Of a stretch of DNA of 35,360 bases, positions 4,033 to 11,120 are shown one piece after another. The translations under genes were made by a program, and so were the position numbers. The stretch comes from an uncultured Oscillospiraceae bacterium. GTDB lineage: Bacteria > Bacillota > Clostridia > Oscillospirales > Oscillospiraceae. The DNA lies in assembly GCA_944387225.1 (NCBI GenBank), contig CALXDY010000078.1:1-35360 (forward strand), written 5' to 3'. The notes below the pieces were generated by a model. That model worked only from the letters and a program-made list of their open reading frames with translations, had not been told where the DNA came from and made no database searches. Position 1 is the stretch's first letter. Every line of letters begins with the position of its first letter.

Positions 4033-5511
4033 TCATAGGATGATGCAGATCAGACCGCCGGAGCCCTCGTTGATGATCCGCTGCAGGGTCTCCCGCAGCT
4101 TCTCCCGGGCGTCCTCCGGCATCCGCTTGACCTTGGCATTGAGATCCTCCCCCACCAGCTCGTGGAAGGATTTCCCGAAAATATTGGACTGCCAGATCTT
4201 TCCCGTATCCCCCTCAAACTCCTGAAGCAGGTAGTGGATCATTTCCTCGCTCTGCTTTTCGCTGCCAACGATGGGCGAAACCTCCGTCTCGATGTCCGCC
4301 CGGATCATATGGATGGAGGGGGCGCTGGCCTTGAGACGGACGCCGTACCGCCCGCCCTGGCGGACGATTTCCGGCTCCTCCAGTACCAGGGAGTCCACGG
4401 AGGGCACCACAATGCCGTAGCCCGTCTCCTCCACCTCCTTCAAGGTGTCCGCCACCTTATCGTAGGAAGTTTTGATCTTGGCCAGGTCGGTCAGCAGAGC
4501 CATAAGATCCCCGTCGTCTCCGATCTGGAAGCCGGACTGCTGGGAGATGGTCTCATAAAACAGGGCCCTGGGCAGCTCCACCACGGCGGAGGCCACGCCG
4601 CTGCCCAGATCAATATTGTTGACCCGTACCCCGCTGACCTGCTGGCACTCCCCCATGGAAGCCATGGCCTGATCCACATCCCGGATCCGCCGCAGCTGAG
4701 CCGCTCCCTGGCGGATGGCCGCGTACAGGGCGGCCTTGATGGGGTGGTCCTGGGACAGGGCGTCCACCCAGGGGGGCAGAAACAGATCCAGTTCCTTCAG
4801 TGGGAACTCATATAGCACCTGTTTCAGGATGGCGTTGATATCGCCCTCCTCCAGCTCCAGGCAGTTGACCGCCACACAGCTGACCTGATGGCGCTGGGCG
4901 ATATCCGCCCGGATGGCCCGGGCCCGGTCGGAATTGGGGTAGGCGGAGTTGAGCACCACCAAAAAGGGTTTGCCCAGCTCCTTCAGCTCAGCGATGACCC
5001 GCTCCTCCGCCTCCACATAGTCCTCTCGGGGAATGTCGGTGATGGTGCCGTCCGTGGTGACCACGATGGCGATGGTGGAGTGCTCCGCCACCACCTTCCG
5101 GGTCCCTACCTCCGCCGCCTGGGACATGGGGATCTCGTGGTCGAACCAGGGAGTGTTGACCATCCGCTGGTTCTCCCCCTCCAGCTGGCCAACCGCACCA
5201 TCCACCATGTAACCCACGCAGTCGATGAGCCGCACCTGGAACTCGGCTCCTCCCTCCATGGAGACGGTCACCGCATCCTCCGGAACAAATTTAGGCTCTG
5301 CCGTCATGATGGTGCGGCCGGACCCGCTTTGAGGCAGCTCATCCCTGGCCCGCTCCCGGCGATAGACGTTTTCAATGTTGGGGATGATCAGCGCCTCCAT
5401 AAAGCGCTTGATAAAGGTGGATTTTCCTGTGCGAACCGGCCCCACCACGCCAATGTAGATGTCGCCCTCCGTCCGAAGCGCGATATCCTCGTAGATTTTG
5501 CGATCTCCCAC
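4033..5511 (-). CDS. spoIVA: Stage IV sporulation protein A, spore-coat morphogenetic ATPase
   Basis: SpoIVA is the mother-cell ATPase that polymerises around the forespore to form the coat basement layer; SpoVM and, in Clostridia, SipL hold it there. Starting at the GTG at 5511 gives 492 residues, the B. subtilis length. The Walker A motif GPVRTGKST then falls at 24-32, with Lys30 where B. subtilis SpoIVA has its essential lysine. Other family landmarks are TIMTAEPKFVP, IDCVGY, STIAIVVTTDGTI and the conserved C-terminus NEGSGGLICIIL. GAAGGAGG sits 7 bases before this GTG, and the N-terminus IYEDIALRTEGD aligns with the family. A frame open to 5592 would include the promoter and is rejected. 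A sigma-E-like promoter precedes the gene. Confidence 0.97.
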   Translation of the reverse strand: MGDRKIYEDIALRTEGDIYIGVVGPVRTGKSTFIKRFMEALIIPNIENVYRRERARDELPQSGSGRTIMTAEPKFVPEDAVTVSMEGGAEFQVRLIDCVGYMVDGAVGQLEGENQRMVNTPWFDHEIPMSQAAEVGTRKVVAEHSTIAIVVTTDGTITDIPREDYVEAEERVIAELKELGKPFLVVLNSAYPNSDRARAIRADIAQRHQVSCVAVNCLELEEGDINAILKQVLYEFPLKELDLFLPPWVDALSQDHPIKAALYAAIRQGAAQLRRIRDVDQAMASMGECQQVSGVRVNNIDLGSGVASAVVELPRALFYETISQQSGFQIGDDGDLMALLTDLAKIKTSYDKVADTLKEVEETGYGIVVPSVDSLVLEEPEIVRQGGRYGVRLKASAPSIHMIRADIETEVSPIVGSEKQSEEMIHYLLQEFEGDTGKIWQSNIFGKSFHELVGEDLNAKVKRMPEDAREKLRETLQRIINEGSGGLICIIL

Positions 5512-5553
5512 TTGAATTCCTCCTTCGGCCCAGTGAGCCGGTGGTTTCCATAC

Positions 5554-5582
5554 ACTATATGGGCCATGCCCCCGGGATATGC
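5554..5582 (-). promoter_or_regulatory. Sigma-E-like mother-cell promoter of spoIVA
   Basis: The minus strand reads GCATATC (5576-5582), a 14-base spacer, then CATATAGT (5554-5561). The known sigma-E consensus is roughly a GCATATT-like -35 and CATACAnT about 14 bases away. The transcript would start near 5547, about 36 bases before the GTG. spoIVA is a classical sigma-E gene. Confidence 0.8.
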
Positions 5583-5602
5583 CCCTGTCCACTTCCCTGG
5601 TG

Positions 5603-5649: not shown

Positions 5650-7170
5650 TTACCGGGCACTGGGGATCAGCAGCATCCGGCCGGAAGGCAGTTCCTCTTC
5701 CTCCAGTTCGTTGGCCTGGAGGATCTGCTGGGTGGTGGTACCGTAGGCCTTGGCCAGTTCCCACAGTCCCTCGCCGGGAGCGGCCAAACGCAGCACCACA
5801 GAGGGCTGCTCTCCTTCTCCTTTGCTTCTGGTCTCGCCCAGGGCGGCAGAGCGCACCCAGGAGGTTCCCTGTTCCTGAAGGATAAGGCATTCCACCTCCG
5901 CGGTGAATCTGGCCTCTACGCCTCCCGCGGTAGGTGCGGCATATACCTCCGCCGGGGGTGCCAGGCGGCAAAAGCATCTGGCGCCCTGGGGGGCGTCCAC
6001 CCGGCAGTTGATGGGGATGGTACGCTGAACCGCCTGGATCTCTTCCCCGTCGTCCAGGCAGAGGACTGTCACTCCGGCCTCTCCCTCCAGCACCAGCTGC
6101 TCCCCCTCTCTCCGGCGGCTCAGCTGTCCCAGGGTCACCCAGCTGTCCAGCACCGTTCTGGGAGTGGCTCCGGTCTCCAGCAGCTCCCGCACCCCCAGGC
6201 TGCGAACGGGAGCTTCCACCAGGCGTCCCAGACGCTGCTCCTCCCGCTCCACCTGGGTATCGTAACCGGTACTATACAGATCCTGCAGCAGGGTCAGAGG
6301 ACGGCGGCACCATACCTGGGCCTGGGCCACCAGATCCATGTCCACCTCCCAGGTGCGGCCGTCCTCTCCTCCCGGCTGGCAGCACAGCTGCGCCACCTCC
6401 ACGGATACGTGGCAGTCTCCGCCCTCTCCCAGGGCGGGCAGCTCCATCACCTGGGAAAAATCCCGGGATTCATGGAAGGCGGCCAAAGCACCTCCAGGCT
6501 GCTGAGTGAGCAGCTGGATTTCCGCCGTACCCTTGAAAATGAGCCGGCTGCCAATGCGCTTGCTCTCCCTGCACACAGGGACTACCCGGCAGCACACCAG
6601 CTGAGCCCCTTCCTCCCCGCCGCAGCGAATCTGATCTCCGAAGTGGAAGGGTTTCTCCTCTACGGCGCAGAGATGGTAGGTCTCCTCCTGGCGGCACAGC
6701 TGCTGCACCCCGTGCTCCTCCGGCTCCCGTACACTCTGGCATACCTCCTGCCGCCAGGGCTGGAAGGCGGTCAGCTCCACCGCCACCTCCGCCCGAACCA
6801 GCACCTTTCTTGGGTTCAGCGCCCGGGCATCGGCACTTCGGATCCGGACGCGGGCGTGTACCGCCCCCTCCTCCGTCAGCCCGGGAGCCTCCATCTGGGC
6901 GGAAAAGGGCAAAGCCACCTCCATCCGGCGCAAGCCGCCCCCTTCCTCCGGCCGGTACAAAACAACCGCCCGGACTGCGCCGCTGGCCCAGGCCAGCCCT
7001 TCCCTGGCCTGCCTCTGGTTGAGGAATGCCTGCCCGCACACCGCCGTAATATGCAGAATGTCCGGGCAGGCGTCCGGGACGATGGCCTCCATCGTCTCCT
7101 CCTGGCAGATGGTGTCGTCGGCTATGACCTGATAGCCCTCCATAACGTCGCGGTCAAATTCCAGTTCCAT
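5650..7170 (-). CDS. sipL: SpoIVA-interacting protein SipL (DUF3794 repeats plus LysM)
   Basis: In Clostridioides difficile SipL binds SpoIVA through its C-terminal LysM domain and is needed for coat localisation; it replaces SpoVID of bacilli. The 506-residue product shows about three DUF3794/SipL-type repeats (roughly residues 25-135, 210-310 and 355-440). A C-terminal LysM follows, recognisable as GLWELAKAYGTTTQQILQANEL. The ATG at 7170 is chosen because AGGAGAGGA lies 5-9 bases upstream and a sigma-E-like promoter sits between it and spoVM. The longer frame to 7296 would span that promoter. Several cysteines occur, but no signal peptide. It lies directly upstream of spoIVA, its expected partner, which strengthens the call. 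Confidence 0.92.
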   Translation of the reverse strand: MELEFDRDVMEGYQVIADDTICQEETMEAIVPDACPDILHITAVCGQAFLNQRQAREGLAWASGAVRAVVLYRPEEGGGLRRMEVALPFSAQMEAPGLTEEGAVHARVRIRSADARALNPRKVLVRAEVAVELTAFQPWRQEVCQSVREPEEHGVQQLCRQEETYHLCAVEEKPFHFGDQIRCGGEEGAQLVCCRVVPVCRESKRIGSRLIFKGTAEIQLLTQQPGGALAAFHESRDFSQVMELPALGEGGDCHVSVEVAQLCCQPGGEDGRTWEVDMDLVAQAQVWCRRPLTLLQDLYSTGYDTQVEREEQRLGRLVEAPVRSLGVRELLETGATPRTVLDSWVTLGQLSRRREGEQLVLEGEAGVTVLCLDDGEEIQAVQRTIPINCRVDAPQGARCFCRLAPPAEVYAAPTAGGVEARFTAEVECLILQEQGTSWVRSAALGETRSKGEGEQPSVVLRLAAPGEGLWELAKAYGTTTQQILQANELEEEELPSGRMLLIPSAR

Positions 7171-7250: not shown

Positions 7251-7325
7251 TCACCGGCCCAGGCCGAACATTCTCCGCAGCAGACCCCGCAGACATTTGG
7301 GGGAACGTACCACCACGATACCCAT
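7251..7325 (-). CDS. spoVM: Stage V sporulation protein M (24-residue membrane-curvature anchor)
   Basis: SpoVM is a tiny amphipathic helix that inserts in the curved outer forespore membrane and recruits SpoIVA. This 24-codon frame aligns without gaps to the 26-residue B. subtilis SpoVM as I remember it. Pro9, Lys10, Leu12, Gly14, Arg17, Met19, Gly21 and Arg24 are identical, and the hydrophobic/basic pattern holds (SPKCLRGLLRRMFG). The start ATG at 7325 has a purine-rich AGGAGGGGAGG ribosome-binding site about 9 bases upstream. It lies after rsgA, as in B. subtilis (where rpe and thiN intervene), and directly before sipL and spoIVA. A sigma-E-like promoter precedes it. Cys11 is unusual relative to Phe in B. 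subtilis. Its size makes it easy for gene callers to miss. Confidence 0.88.
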   Translation of the reverse strand: MGIVVVRSPKCLRGLLRRMFGLGR

Positions 7326-7359: not shown

Positions 7360-7388
7360 AGTATATGGCGGAAAACTACGGGATGTCA
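7360..7388 (-). promoter_or_regulatory. Candidate sigma-E-like promoter of spoVM
   Basis: The minus strand has a good -10, CATATACT (7360-7367), a 14-base spacer, and a weaker -35, TGACATC (7382-7388). Spacing matches the sipL and spoIVA promoters exactly. Confidence 0.6.
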
Positions 7389-7414: not shown

Positions 7415-7448
7415 AAAAAAAGACAGGACGCGCTTCAAACGCGTCCTG
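7415..7448 (-). terminator. Rho-independent terminator after rsgA (end of the 18-gene block)
   Basis: A 9-bp stem (CAGGACGCG/CGCGTCCTG, loop of 7) is followed on the minus strand by TC and seven T residues. It begins 14 bases after the rsgA stop and separates the housekeeping block from spoVM. Confidence 0.9.
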
Positions 7449-7461
7449 CCGATTCATGGTT

Positions 7462-8340
7462 TTATGGCCGCTGCCAGTCGGGGATCTCCTCCGCCTGACG
7501 GTAAAGCCGGACATAGCTGTCATGGCGGCTGGGGGGGATCTTCCCCTCCTTCACCGCCGCCAGTACGGCGCAGCCCCGCTCCTTGATGTGGGCGCAGTCC
7601 TGGAACTGGCATTCATCCCGGTAGGGAGCGAACTCCCGGAAGCGTTCCGCCAGCTCCTCCTTCCGGCACAGCTCCATCCGATCCACGTCAAAGGAGGAAA
7701 AGCCCGGTGTATCCGCCGCCAGGGTACCGCTTCCCAGACGGAACAGCTCTACATGCCGGGTGGTATGCCGTCCACGGCCCAGCTTTTCACTCACATCCCC
7801 CGTAGGAATGGCCGCCTCCGGCTCCAGGGCATTGAGCAGGCTGGACTTCCCAACGCCGGAGTTCCCTGTAAAGGCGCATACCTTTCCGGCGATGATCCGG
7901 CGCAGCTCTTCCACACCCTCCCCCGTCTGGGCGCTGAGGGTGACGGTGGGAAAACCGGCGGCACGGTAGATGTCCGCCAGGCTGTCCCCGGGCGCCAGGT
8001 CACACTTGTTGACGCAGATCACGCTTTCGCAGCCTTTCCCCTCCGCAATTGCGATCACCCGGTCGATGAGGAAGGGATCAGTCACAGGAACTGCTTGGGA
8101 AGCTACGATCACCAGCTGGTCAATATTGGCCACAGCGGGGCGGTGGAACTCATTTTTCCGGGGCAAAACCCGGTCAATGATGCCCTGATTCTCCCCTGTT
8201 TGCGTGAAGACCACCCGATCTCCCACCAAAGGGGAGATCTTTTCATGGCGGAGCCTGCCCCGGCCCCGGCAGGGGGTGATCCCCTGCCCGTCATCCACAT
8301 AGTAGAAGCCGCTTAGGGCTTTGACGATAATTCCTTCCAT
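7462..8340 (-). CDS. rsgA: Ribosome small subunit-dependent GTPase A
   Basis: RsgA is a circularly permuted GTPase that checks late 30S subunit maturation. In 292 residues an N-terminal OB-fold is followed by the GTPase motifs in permuted order: NKCD (G4, 111-114), GNSGVGKS (G1, 159-166) and DTPG (G3, 210-213). A C-terminal zinc site has Cys244, Cys249, His251 and Cys257. The stop of prkC is two bases from the ATG at 8340, so translation is probably coupled. As in B. subtilis, it follows prpC-prkC, whose kinase is known there to phosphorylate this GTPase. It is the last gene before the terminator. Confidence 0.97.
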   Translation of the reverse strand: MEGIIVKALSGFYYVDDGQGITPCRGRGRLRHEKISPLVGDRVVFTQTGENQGIIDRVLPRKNEFHRPAVANIDQLVIVASQAVPVTDPFLIDRVIAIAEGKGCESVICVNKCDLAPGDSLADIYRAAGFPTVTLSAQTGEGVEELRRIIAGKVCAFTGNSGVGKSSLLNALEPEAAIPTGDVSEKLGRGRHTTRHVELFRLGSGTLAADTPGFSSFDVDRMELCRKEELAERFREFAPYRDECQFQDCAHIKERGCAVLAAVKEGKIPPSRHDSYVRLYRQAEEIPDWQRP

Positions 8341-8342
8341 CC

Positions 8343-10367
8343 TCAGGCCCCAAAGTCCACGGTCTGACGGCTGTACTCCCGGCCGTCCACATAGAGGATA
8401 TAGATCACGCTGCCGGAACCGGAAACCGGGAAGTCCACGCCGGACTCAAAATTGGTGTCCTTTTCCTCCGGGCCGTAAACCACATTCCCGTTGCCGTCCC
8501 GAACCTCGATGGTAACGACCGATCCGTTGTCGGGGAAGTCAAAGTGGATGGTCTTGCTGGACTGGGACAGATCGGATCCGCTGCTTGGACCTGTGCTGAC
8601 GATGATATTCACGGTGGTTCCCTTTTCCACCATCTCCTTGGGGGCAATCGATTGGAACCACACCTGTCCGGCCGGGTATTCATCACTGCTGGAGTACTGG
8701 ACGGGACCTGCCACCAGCCCCAAATCATCCGTGATAACAGACAGGGCCTTCTCTTCCGTCATGCCCCGCAAGTCGATCATAGGCACCGTATCGTTCTTCT
8801 TGCCCAGGCTCATGGTCAGATAGATCTTATCTCCCTCTTCAATGGTAGAGCCGGCAGCGGGGATGGTGGAGATGACGCAGTCCTTTTCAATGGTGTCGTG
8901 GTAGTCGCTGCGGGTGGTGAAATCCACCTCGAAGTCTCCCAGATTATTCAGCGCGTTCAATGCCTCCTGAAGGGGTTTTTTGCTCAGGTCAGGCATTACC
9001 AGCTCCTCCTCCGGGCCGGTACTCACCACCACCTTGATGGTGCGGTTGCTCCCGGTAATGCTGGCGTTGGCGGCGGGATCCTGCTGGATAATGGTACCGG
9101 CGGGCTGATCGTCCTCCCGCTGCTCCGACATCTCCAGGGTAAAGCCGTTCAGCAGCTGCTGATCGTTTACCACGTCGCTGAACAGCCGCCCAGTGACCGT
9201 GGGCACGGTAACGGCCTCGGACTGGGGATTGAAGATGCTGGACAGCACCGAGGAGAACATCATGAAAATCAGTACGCAGACAAACAGCAGGATGGCGGCC
9301 ACCGCCGCGATAATGGGAATATTGGACTTCCCGCCTCCGCGGCTGTCCTCCTCTCGCTCCCGCTCCTCCTCCCGCCGGCGGCGGGGCTGCTGAGCGCTGT
9401 GGCTCCGGGCGGACTGACGCTCCGCTTCCCGGCGGATGGCGCTGCGGGTGACAGAGGTATTCACTACCTGGGTCTTGTCCGCGTCGTCCGGCTCGTCGGC
9501 CAGGAAATCCTGACGGACATAGTCGAAGTTGATATTGGGGTTCTTCCGGAACTCCTCCAGATCTGCCAGCATCTCGTCGGCGGAGGAATAGCGGTTGTCC
9601 GGATTGGGGGCCATGGCCTTCATGGTGATGGCCTCCAGCGCCTCGGGAATGGTGTCATCCAGCTCCCTGGGAGACAGGGGGATGGAATTGATATGCTGAA
9701 TGGCCACAGACACCGGGGTATCCCCTTCAAAGGGCAGGCGGCCGGTGATCATTTCGTACAGCACCACACCGGCGGAGTACAGATCGGACCGGGCGTCGAT
9801 GTGACTGCCTCTGGCCTGCTCCGGAGAGATATAATGCACCGATCCCAGGGCCTCCTGGGTAAGGGTGCTGTGTCCCCCGCTGGCCACCCGGGCGATGCCG
9901 AAGTCAGCCACCTTCACGCTGCCGTCCCGCAGCACCATGATGTTGTGGGGCTTGATGTCCCGGTGGATGATCCCCCGGCTGTGGGCATGGCCCAGGGCCT
10001 TGACAATCTGGGTGATAAAGTGCAGCGCTTCCCGCCAGTTGAGCTTGTTTCCCTTGGCCTGCATATATTGCTTCAGCGTGATGCCGTCAATCAGCTCCAT
10101 GACGATATATTCCAGGTCGGAAGAGCGGCTGACATCATACACCGCCACAATGTTGGGGTGGGACAGCATAGCCACGGCCTGGGACTCGTCATGGAAGCGG
10201 CGGCGCAGCTCTGCGTCCTCGGCCAGATCCTCCCGCAGGATTTTCACAGCCACCAGACGGTTGAGCCGGTGACACCGGGCCTTGTATACCCGGGCCATGC
10301 CGCCCACGCCGATCTGCTCCAGAATTTCGTAGCGGTTATCCAGTAATTTACCGATGTATTGATCCAT
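8343..10367 (-). CDS. prkC: Membrane Ser/Thr protein kinase with PASTA domains
   Basis: This is the PASTA kinase that senses cell-wall fragments or lipid II and phosphorylates cytosolic targets. The 674-residue protein has an N-terminal Hanks-type kinase: GVGGMARVY at 20-28, Lys42, HRDIKPHN at 135-142 and DFG at 155-157. A charged Arg/Glu-rich linker (about 312-345) and one membrane helix (about 350-371) follow. About three extracellular PASTA repeats lie between roughly 385 and 590, with a Ser/Gly linker and a short C-terminal beta domain. GAGGAGG precedes the ATG at 10367. It is paired with prpC, 27 bases upstream. In spore formers PrkC is known as a germination sensor for peptidoglycan fragments. 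Confidence 0.96.
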   Translation of the reverse strand: MDQYIGKLLDNRYEILEQIGVGGMARVYKARCHRLNRLVAVKILREDLAEDAELRRRFHDESQAVAMLSHPNIVAVYDVSRSSDLEYIVMELIDGITLKQYMQAKGNKLNWREALHFITQIVKALGHAHSRGIIHRDIKPHNIMVLRDGSVKVADFGIARVASGGHSTLTQEALGSVHYISPEQARGSHIDARSDLYSAGVVLYEMITGRLPFEGDTPVSVAIQHINSIPLSPRELDDTIPEALEAITMKAMAPNPDNRYSSADEMLADLEEFRKNPNINFDYVRQDFLADEPDDADKTQVVNTSVTRSAIRREAERQSARSHSAQQPRRRREEEREREEDSRGGGKSNIPIIAAVAAILLFVCVLIFMMFSSVLSSIFNPQSEAVTVPTVTGRLFSDVVNDQQLLNGFTLEMSEQREDDQPAGTIIQQDPAANASITGSNRTIKVVVSTGPEEELVMPDLSKKPLQEALNALNNLGDFEVDFTTRSDYHDTIEKDCVISTIPAAGSTIEEGDKIYLTMSLGKKNDTVPMIDLRGMTEEKALSVITDDLGLVAGPVQYSSSDEYPAGQVWFQSIAPKEMVEKGTTVNIIVSTGPSSGSDLSQSSKTIHFDFPDNGSVVTIEVRDGNGNVVYGPEEKDTNFESGVDFPVSGSGSVIYILYVDGREYSRQTVDFGA

Positions 10368-10394
10368 GGTAAACCTCCTCCTCTGCCGGTGTGC

Positions 10395-11120
10395 TCAGGA
10401 GCACTGGATCAGCACCGCCGTCACATTATCCGGGGCGCCACGATGCAGTGCGATGTCCAGCAGCCGGTCACAGCAGCTGTCCGGTTCCCCTCCATGAATG
10501 ACCTCATGGAGGATCTCCTGGTCAGTGACCTGGTTGCTCAGGCCATCGCTGCACAGGAGCAGATAATCTCCCTCATCCAGAGTCTGACAGAACGCGTCCG
10601 CCCGCAGATCGGGCTCCGCCCCAAGGGCCCTGGTAATGAGATTTTTGTGGGGATGGCTTCTGGCCTGCTCCGGAGTCAGCTCTCCGTGCTGTACCAGATC
10701 CTCCACCAGGGAATGGTCCCGGGTGATCCGGGTAATCCCCTCCCGGGGGGAGATGTAATAGGCCCGGCTGTCCCCTTCATTGAGGATCAGCGCCTGCCGT
10801 CCGTCCGTCAAAGCGGCTACCAGGGTGGTCCCCATCCCAGCACAGCGTTCCTCAGAGACAGCCCGCTGATACACCGCCCGGTTGGCAGCCTCGGCGGCCC
10901 GCTCCATGCGAACCCGGTCGGAGGTTTCCTCCTCCGGCGTCATAAAGCTCTGCATGAACACCTCCACCGCCATGGAGCTGGCAATATTGCCCGCCCGGGC
11001 GCCGCCCATTCCGTCGCACACCAGAGCAACCACCCGGCCGTCCGCCAGGGTCTGTTGGGCGAAGGCGTCCTGATTCTGTTCCCGGATGATTCCCCGGTGG
11101 GTAATTCCCCATACGTTCAT
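10395..11120 (-). CDS. prpC: PP2C-type Ser/Thr protein phosphatase (Stp1/PrpC)
   Basis: It is the metal-dependent phosphatase that reverses PrkC phosphorylation. The 241-residue product has the PP2C signature residues: REQNQD (13-18), the metal-binding DGMGG (36-40), NEGDSRAY and CSDGLSNQV. It lacks extra domains, matching the usual bacterial length. The ATG at 11120 overlaps the rlmN stop by four bases (ATGA), implying translational coupling, and prkC follows after 27 bases. The rlmN-prpC-prkC-rsgA order is conserved with B. subtilis. Confidence 0.96.
   Translation of the reverse strand: MNVWGITHRGIIREQNQDAFAQQTLADGRVVALVCDGMGGARAGNIASSMAVEVFMQSFMTPEEETSDRVRMERAAEAANRAVYQRAVSEERCAGMGTTLVAALTDGRQALILNEGDSRAYYISPREGITRITRDHSLVEDLVQHGELTPEQARSHPHKNLITRALGAEPDLRADAFCQTLDEGDYLLLCSDGLSNQVTDQEILHEVIHGGEPDSCCDRLLDIALHRGAPDNVTAVLIQCS

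Follow-up and report, generated by a model that had tools for sequence, protein, structure and literature searches.

The window, a 35,360-nt stretch of DNA from an uncultured Oscillospiraceae bacterium, carries between rsgA and sipL a frame of only 75 nt that had been predicted to be spoVM, and the question raised by this locus is whether so short a frame encodes a working SpoVM protein. SpoVM is known to be missed by annotation, and a passage of Galperin et al. 2012 left open that clostridia without a detected SpoVM may hold distant versions of it (PMC3533761). Our literature search, which covered few subscription journals, found no paper on spoVM in Oscillospiraceae, Flavonifractor or Ruminococcaceae. 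The analyses described here make it very probable that the frame is a conserved, divergent spoVM, whose product we predict to attach to the convex outer membrane of the forespore and to bring SpoIVA there. Judging by sequence, the protein itself is a known one, and what is new is the divergent branch of SpoVM to which it belongs. The features of the locus, in window coordinates, are as follows.

4033..5511, minus strand: spoIVA, 492 aa, GTG start; SpoIVA ATPase, middle and C-terminal domains by Pfam
5650..7170, minus strand: sipL, 506 aa; SPOCS and LysM domains by Pfam
7251..7325, minus strand: very probable spoVM gene for a divergent SpoVM; 24 sense codons and a stop codon
7335..7346, minus strand: ribosome-binding site GAGGAGGGGAGG, 9 nt 5' of the spoVM ATG
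7360..7367, minus strand: CATATACT, a predicted -10 element similar to those of mother-cell sigma E/K promoters
7422..7450, minus strand: predicted intrinsic terminator after rsgA; 13 pairs, 8 GC, then TTTTTTT (shuffles, mean 0.2)
7462..8340, minus strand: rsgA, by Pfam

The coordinates given in the original prediction are right, and the frame lies on the minus strand, which the prediction left unstated. From its ATG it encodes the 24-residue peptide MGIVVVRSPKCLRGLLRRMFGLGR. The order along the minus strand is rsgA, spoVM, sipL and spoIVA, with rsgA, sipL and spoIVA each confirmed by Pfam. An alternative, longer sipL frame (548 aa, up to 7296) overlaps spoVM; the start at 7170 is the most likely one, because in most relatives the match begins at residue 1 or 3 of the 506-aa form. 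The spoIVA frame is likewise open beyond its GTG at 5511, up to another GTG at 5592. By their sequence, the genes 5' of rsgA (8343-11120, minus strand) would encode a phosphatase of the PP2C type and a Ser/Thr kinase whose extracellular part is made of repeats, the place that prpC and prkC take before rsgA in B. subtilis.

Conservation and Selection within the Genus

The original prediction proposed that the frame and its start be sought in relatives. sipL was found in 57 of the 61 genomes of the window's genus, and its surroundings were taken from all 57, the window included (where sipL was split, in one genome, its first piece alone was used). In every one of these 57 genomes sipL is preceded, at a distance of 66-177 nt, by a SpoVM-like frame of the same orientation, so that the frame, its start and the predicted position before sipL all recur throughout the sipL-bearing genus. 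All 15 named contigs carry the frame as well, though these overlap with the genus genomes and are not independent of them. The start codon is ATG in 55 genomes and GTG in two (L064 and L068). The predicted ribosome-binding site was also borne out: GGAGG stands 9 nt upstream of the ATG in the window sequence and, within 25 nt of the start, at a distance of 7-11 nt in 57/57 loci. Residues V4, V5, P9, R13, L16 and F20 are invariant among the 57 peptides. The other four genus genomes lack the frame and sipL alike, and their completeness is 58-81%.

A profile built from the genus (A2) finds a single strong match per genome, at the pre-sipL site, with 47-59.5 bits in each of the 57, some of which are themselves rows of A2; in the genus sample, no second SpoVM copy scored above 17 bits anywhere. 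Among 51 distinct 66-nt cores, which encode 25 distinct peptides, pN/pS in the spoVM frame is 0.27. In the other five frames the ratio is 1.14, 2.97, 1.38, 0.41 and 2.51, and each of them contains stops in some sequences.

Distribution and Gene Order across Oscillospirales

In the order, which we judged from its named members to be Oscillospirales, 197 genomes were searched with the genus profile: 135 have a hit at E <= 0.1, which reaches E <= 1e-3 in 110, and the other 62 have none at E <= 0.1. Twenty sipL-bearing genomes of those 62 were inspected upstream of sipL. Six have a diverged SpoVM-like frame there (L135, L137, L138, L143, L147 and L152), and no such frame was found upstream of sipL in fourteen (L133, L134, L136, L139-L142, L144-L146 and L148-L151), the stretches of L150 and L151 ending at contig ends. 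For the remaining genomes without a hit, the cause may be divergence, a gap in the assembly or genuine loss of the gene.

At least 46 of the 110 order hits, from at least 11 of the 23 families that have any, are less than 2 kb (at most 1.07 kb) away from sipL. Among the matches listed, sipL is downstream on the same strand for at least 34 of these and on the opposite strand for at least 12. For the other order hits, sipL is on another contig (49), more than 2 kb away (5) or not among the matches listed (10). In the window's own family, sipL is adjacent in 11 of 11 order hits. The original prediction also placed spoVM after rsgA, and this part stands for the window but is only partly kept across the genus: rsgA is upstream in the fetched stretch of 25/57 genus loci and 3/15 named loci. 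spoIVA is downstream in 34/57 and 11/15, respectively. Many of the stretches are too short to include these neighbours. The linkage to rsgA is thus weaker than that to sipL. In three order members (L075, L094 and L097), thiN, encoding thiamin pyrophosphokinase, stands between rsgA and spoVM. B. subtilis spoVM lies near rsgA as well, with rpe and thiN between the two, and the window arrangement looks like a shortened form of this old gene order.

A further type of frame was first seen in L137 and L138. In genus g32 (family f23 of the same order; L153-L156), the SpoVM-like frame reads MKVVVVKGSKFWGF[V/I]LRKMFHIKKE[Q/A], with Gly8-Ser9 and without Pro9 in four of four genomes, and the differences between these genomes are mostly synonymous; in two genomes sipL is about 155 nt downstream. 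The g32 genome G083 has no other SpoVM hit at E <= 0.1. A passage in PMC5607322 calls Pro9 the only fully conserved SpoVM residue.

Relationship to Known SpoVM Proteins

The Pfam model PF08183, named in the original prediction as the check to make, gave no match to the window translation and no hit in the whole of its own genome, so that by PF08183 alone the spoVM identity would have been rejected. It also matched 0 of 30 order members under HMMER default filters. The NCBIfam model NF033436 (SpoVM_broad) does detect the window peptide, with 17.9 bits and an E of 0.0022, below its 31-bit cut-off. Of five further genus members scanned, four (L065, L067, L069 and L070) score 15-20 bits, all below the cut-off, and the fifth (L071) has no hit. 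Taken alone, these family-model scores for the window would be a weak lead.

The relatives in the order provide the connection. Order set A4 consists of the window and the best 29 of the 110 order hits and, being the best, is biased towards likeness; NF033436 matches all 30 members at E <= 0.01. When ten A4 members were scored singly, seven passed 31 bits (L097, L094, L096, L099, L078, L083 and L085) and three fell under it (L093, L086 and L075). L099 (46.8 bits) and L085 (33.0 bits), both from the window's family, pass, and L075 (26.3 bits), also from that family, fails. In both L099 and L085, spoVM has rsgA upstream and sipL just downstream. The A4 members form a graded series with the consensus MKIVVVKSPK.LRGILR.LFGI. 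Aligned by hhalign to twelve SpoVMs from outside the order (A5), A4 gave a probability of 96.8 and an E of 2.7e-10 over 27 columns with no gap; these scores, like those from NCBIfam, are independent of gene order.

We also built an outside profile from 20 SpoVMs from outside the order, picked among NF033436 hits, seven over and 13 under the cut-off. These are 20 of 30 loci; excluded were L126, which belongs to the window's family, L109 and L110, which are over the cut-off but had no plain start that was found, and L116, L119, L123, L128, L129, L131 and L132. With this profile the frame ranks first of 363 frames in the window (ATG-started, 18-70 aa, nested starts counted apart), with 18.1 bits against 5.5 for the runner-up. 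A stricter profile from the seven over-cut-off SpoVMs again places it first, with just 6.8 versus 3.8 bits. With either profile the frame is best in 55/57 genus loci, and the two others, L064 and L068, are the GTG-start copies, which fall outside the ATG-only candidate set. By profile, then, the window frame is homologous to SpoVM.

The outside SpoVM set matches the solved B. subtilis SpoVM (PDB 2mvh), and 2mvh was not hit by the window single sequence or by profile A4. As predicted, the window peptide aligns to B. subtilis SpoVM gap-free, Pro9 and Gly14 included, with 9 of 24 residues identical (M1, P9, K10, L12, G14, R17, M19, G21 and R24), and its changes include K2G, I6V, L8S, F11C, G13R and I15L. 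The two proteins, of 24 and 26 residues, share the amphipathic stretch after Pro9. Their gene contexts differ in that the window spoVM adjoins sipL whereas that of B. subtilis does not, sipL being described in PMC5607322 as clostridial only. C. difficile SpoVM is likewise clostridial and acts alongside SipL and SpoIVA, but according to the same source its gene is near rpmB, downstream of CD25622, and the protein keeps Ile6 with Asn491 in SpoIVA in place of Gly486, where the window pairs Val6 with Gly486 (PMC5607322). Conservation, selection, the profile-profile match and the same-family, same-place relatives above the NCBIfam cut-off thus back the spoVM identity first proposed for the frame.

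Alternative Explanations

Three other readings of the frame were weighed. It could be a leader peptide whose translation regulates sipL and which yields no working protein, and its constant, same-strand place shortly 5' of sipL throughout the 57 genus loci is what such a peptide would show. Across the order, however, sipL is downstream on the same strand for 34 of the 110 hits at E <= 1e-3 (matches listed), and within the genus changes that alter the amino acid are rarer than expected from the synonymous ones; a leader peptide is therefore very unlikely. The lowest probability of the three belongs to a chance frame kept open through an overlapping DNA or RNA constraint. The upstream stretch is indeed well conserved too, but the pN/pS of 0.27, compared with 0.41-2.97 in the five stop-containing frames, and the retention of start and ribosome-binding site in 57/57 make this explanation barely credible.

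Convergence offers another reading, in which an amphipathic peptide with no kinship to SpoVM, such as a toxin-like or antimicrobial one, would have come to resemble it. The product is short, cationic and amphipathic, and its single-sequence profile scores are weak, as this explanation would have it. Against it stand the gap-free profile-profile match across the full length, the intermediates of the same family and in the same place that exceed the NCBIfam cut-off, and the finding that the 57 of 61 genomes with sipL are also those with the frame, and we consider convergence, too, highly improbable. The leader peptide, the convergent peptide and the chance frame were accordingly rejected, which leaves a divergent spoVM as the preferred reading.

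Expression Signals

The strong terminator-like stem after rsgA, with its seven T, suggests that spoVM is probably transcribed from its own promoter, apart from rsgA. The predicted -10 element is single-copy in the window and begins 42 nt upstream of the spoVM start codon. The corresponding pattern CATA[TG][AG][CA]T occurs in 54 of 57 genus upstream stretches, which are related rather than independent, compared with a mean of 0.7 and a maximum of 4/57 in base-shuffled controls. We read it, by its resemblance to the consensus, as a putative mother-cell sigma E/K element. The conserved CATANNNT element before spoVM can also be read as sigma-70-like, a reading of the same site that scores 10/12. 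The arrangement TGTCN-N13-16-CATANNNT is absent from the window. No -35 element emerged from 54 aligned upstream stretches, in which the single conspicuous column, C/A, lies 17 nt 5' of the -10.

Two smaller observations belong here. A similar element, CATATAGT, precedes spoIVA (window 5511-5560, minus strand). In many genus leaders the predicted promoter is followed by a short hairpin in which GCCG and CGGC or CGGT enclose a loop that is frequently GNRA-like; it is found in most of L025-L061, e.g. L067. A simple pattern matches 40/57, of which at least L072 probably matches by chance, and the hairpin is absent from the window's shorter leader.

Residues and Proposed Mechanism

The window peptide, with 24 residues, falls in the length class of about 26, carries Pro9 and has an amphipathic pattern after it. 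The hydrophobic moment of residues 10-22 is 0.65, compared with 0.52-0.61 for L103-L105, with a net charge of +6; the moment is computed for an assumed helix. Lys2, Ile6 and Ile15 are listed as functional residues of SpoVM in PMC5607322. The window has Gly2, Val6 and Leu15 instead, and the changes at 6 and 15 are conservative whereas that at 2 is not. Lys2 is present in 0/57 genus peptides and in 18/29 order peptides, and in B. subtilis its replacement by Ala blocks the cortex (PMC5607322). Position 8 of the window peptide is Ser, not Leu. Cys11, singled out as unusual in the original prediction, does differ from Phe11 of B. subtilis but is normal for the genus (49/57). Across the order, position 11 is occupied by F, Y, A, M, C, L, S or V, so that Cys11 characterizes the lineage and is no clue to mechanism. 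The missing Lys2 is the more telling change. Position 6 is needed for SpoIVA binding and is coupled with SpoIVA Gly486, as PMC5607322 describes, and residue 486 of the window SpoIVA is Gly.

According to the account given in PMC12004969, SpoVM of B. subtilis enters the convex outer membrane of the forespore through an amphipathic helix; Pro9 interrupts this helix and leaves the N terminus free, and SpoIVA is recruited and polymerizes. The window holds spoIVA and the gene for the coat tether SipL beside spoVM, as in a spore-former gene set, and by analogy its SpoVM would mark membrane curvature and recruit SpoIVA. Residues 10-22 are predicted to form a cationic amphipathic helix following the Pro9 break and to bind the convex outer forespore membrane, where the flexible N terminus with Val6 would contact and recruit SpoIVA; SpoIVA would then polymerize, and SipL would tie the coat to it. 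SpoVM of this bacterium thus probably labels the forespore surface as the place where the coat is to be built. SpoVM is reported in PMC5607322 to be largely dispensable in C. difficile, and an essential role of the window SpoVM therefore cannot be assumed.

Implications for SpoVM Function and Detection

The window's genus, a gut one, supplies in 57 of 57 sipL-bearing genomes a distant SpoVM of the kind that Galperin et al. left room for, and the group is not named in the passage concerned (PMC3533761). The branch offers natural variants at residues 2, 6, 9, 11 and 15, a basis of curvature-sensing and SpoIVA-binding ideas. A more speculative proposal, which we regard as doubtful, is that a SpoVM branch often beside sipL in Oscillospirales, and evolving with it, dispenses with Lys2 in the window's genus and with Pro9 in g32, with curvature recognition and the cortex checkpoint solved unlike in B. 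subtilis and SipL partly replacing SpoVM.

As the genus SpoVM is under the NCBIfam cut-off in all six members scanned, 'no spoVM' in gut clostridia may often reflect a limit of the models. L094, L096, L097 and L099 score 42-47 bits on the NCBIfam model, yet PF08183 returns nothing for them, and it looks as if either the PF08183 model is too narrow or HMMER filters drop so short a match. A likely GTG or TTG start, seen in the SpoVM homologues L064, L068, L080, L085, L091, L102, L143 and L152, is a further reason why such genes can be missed.
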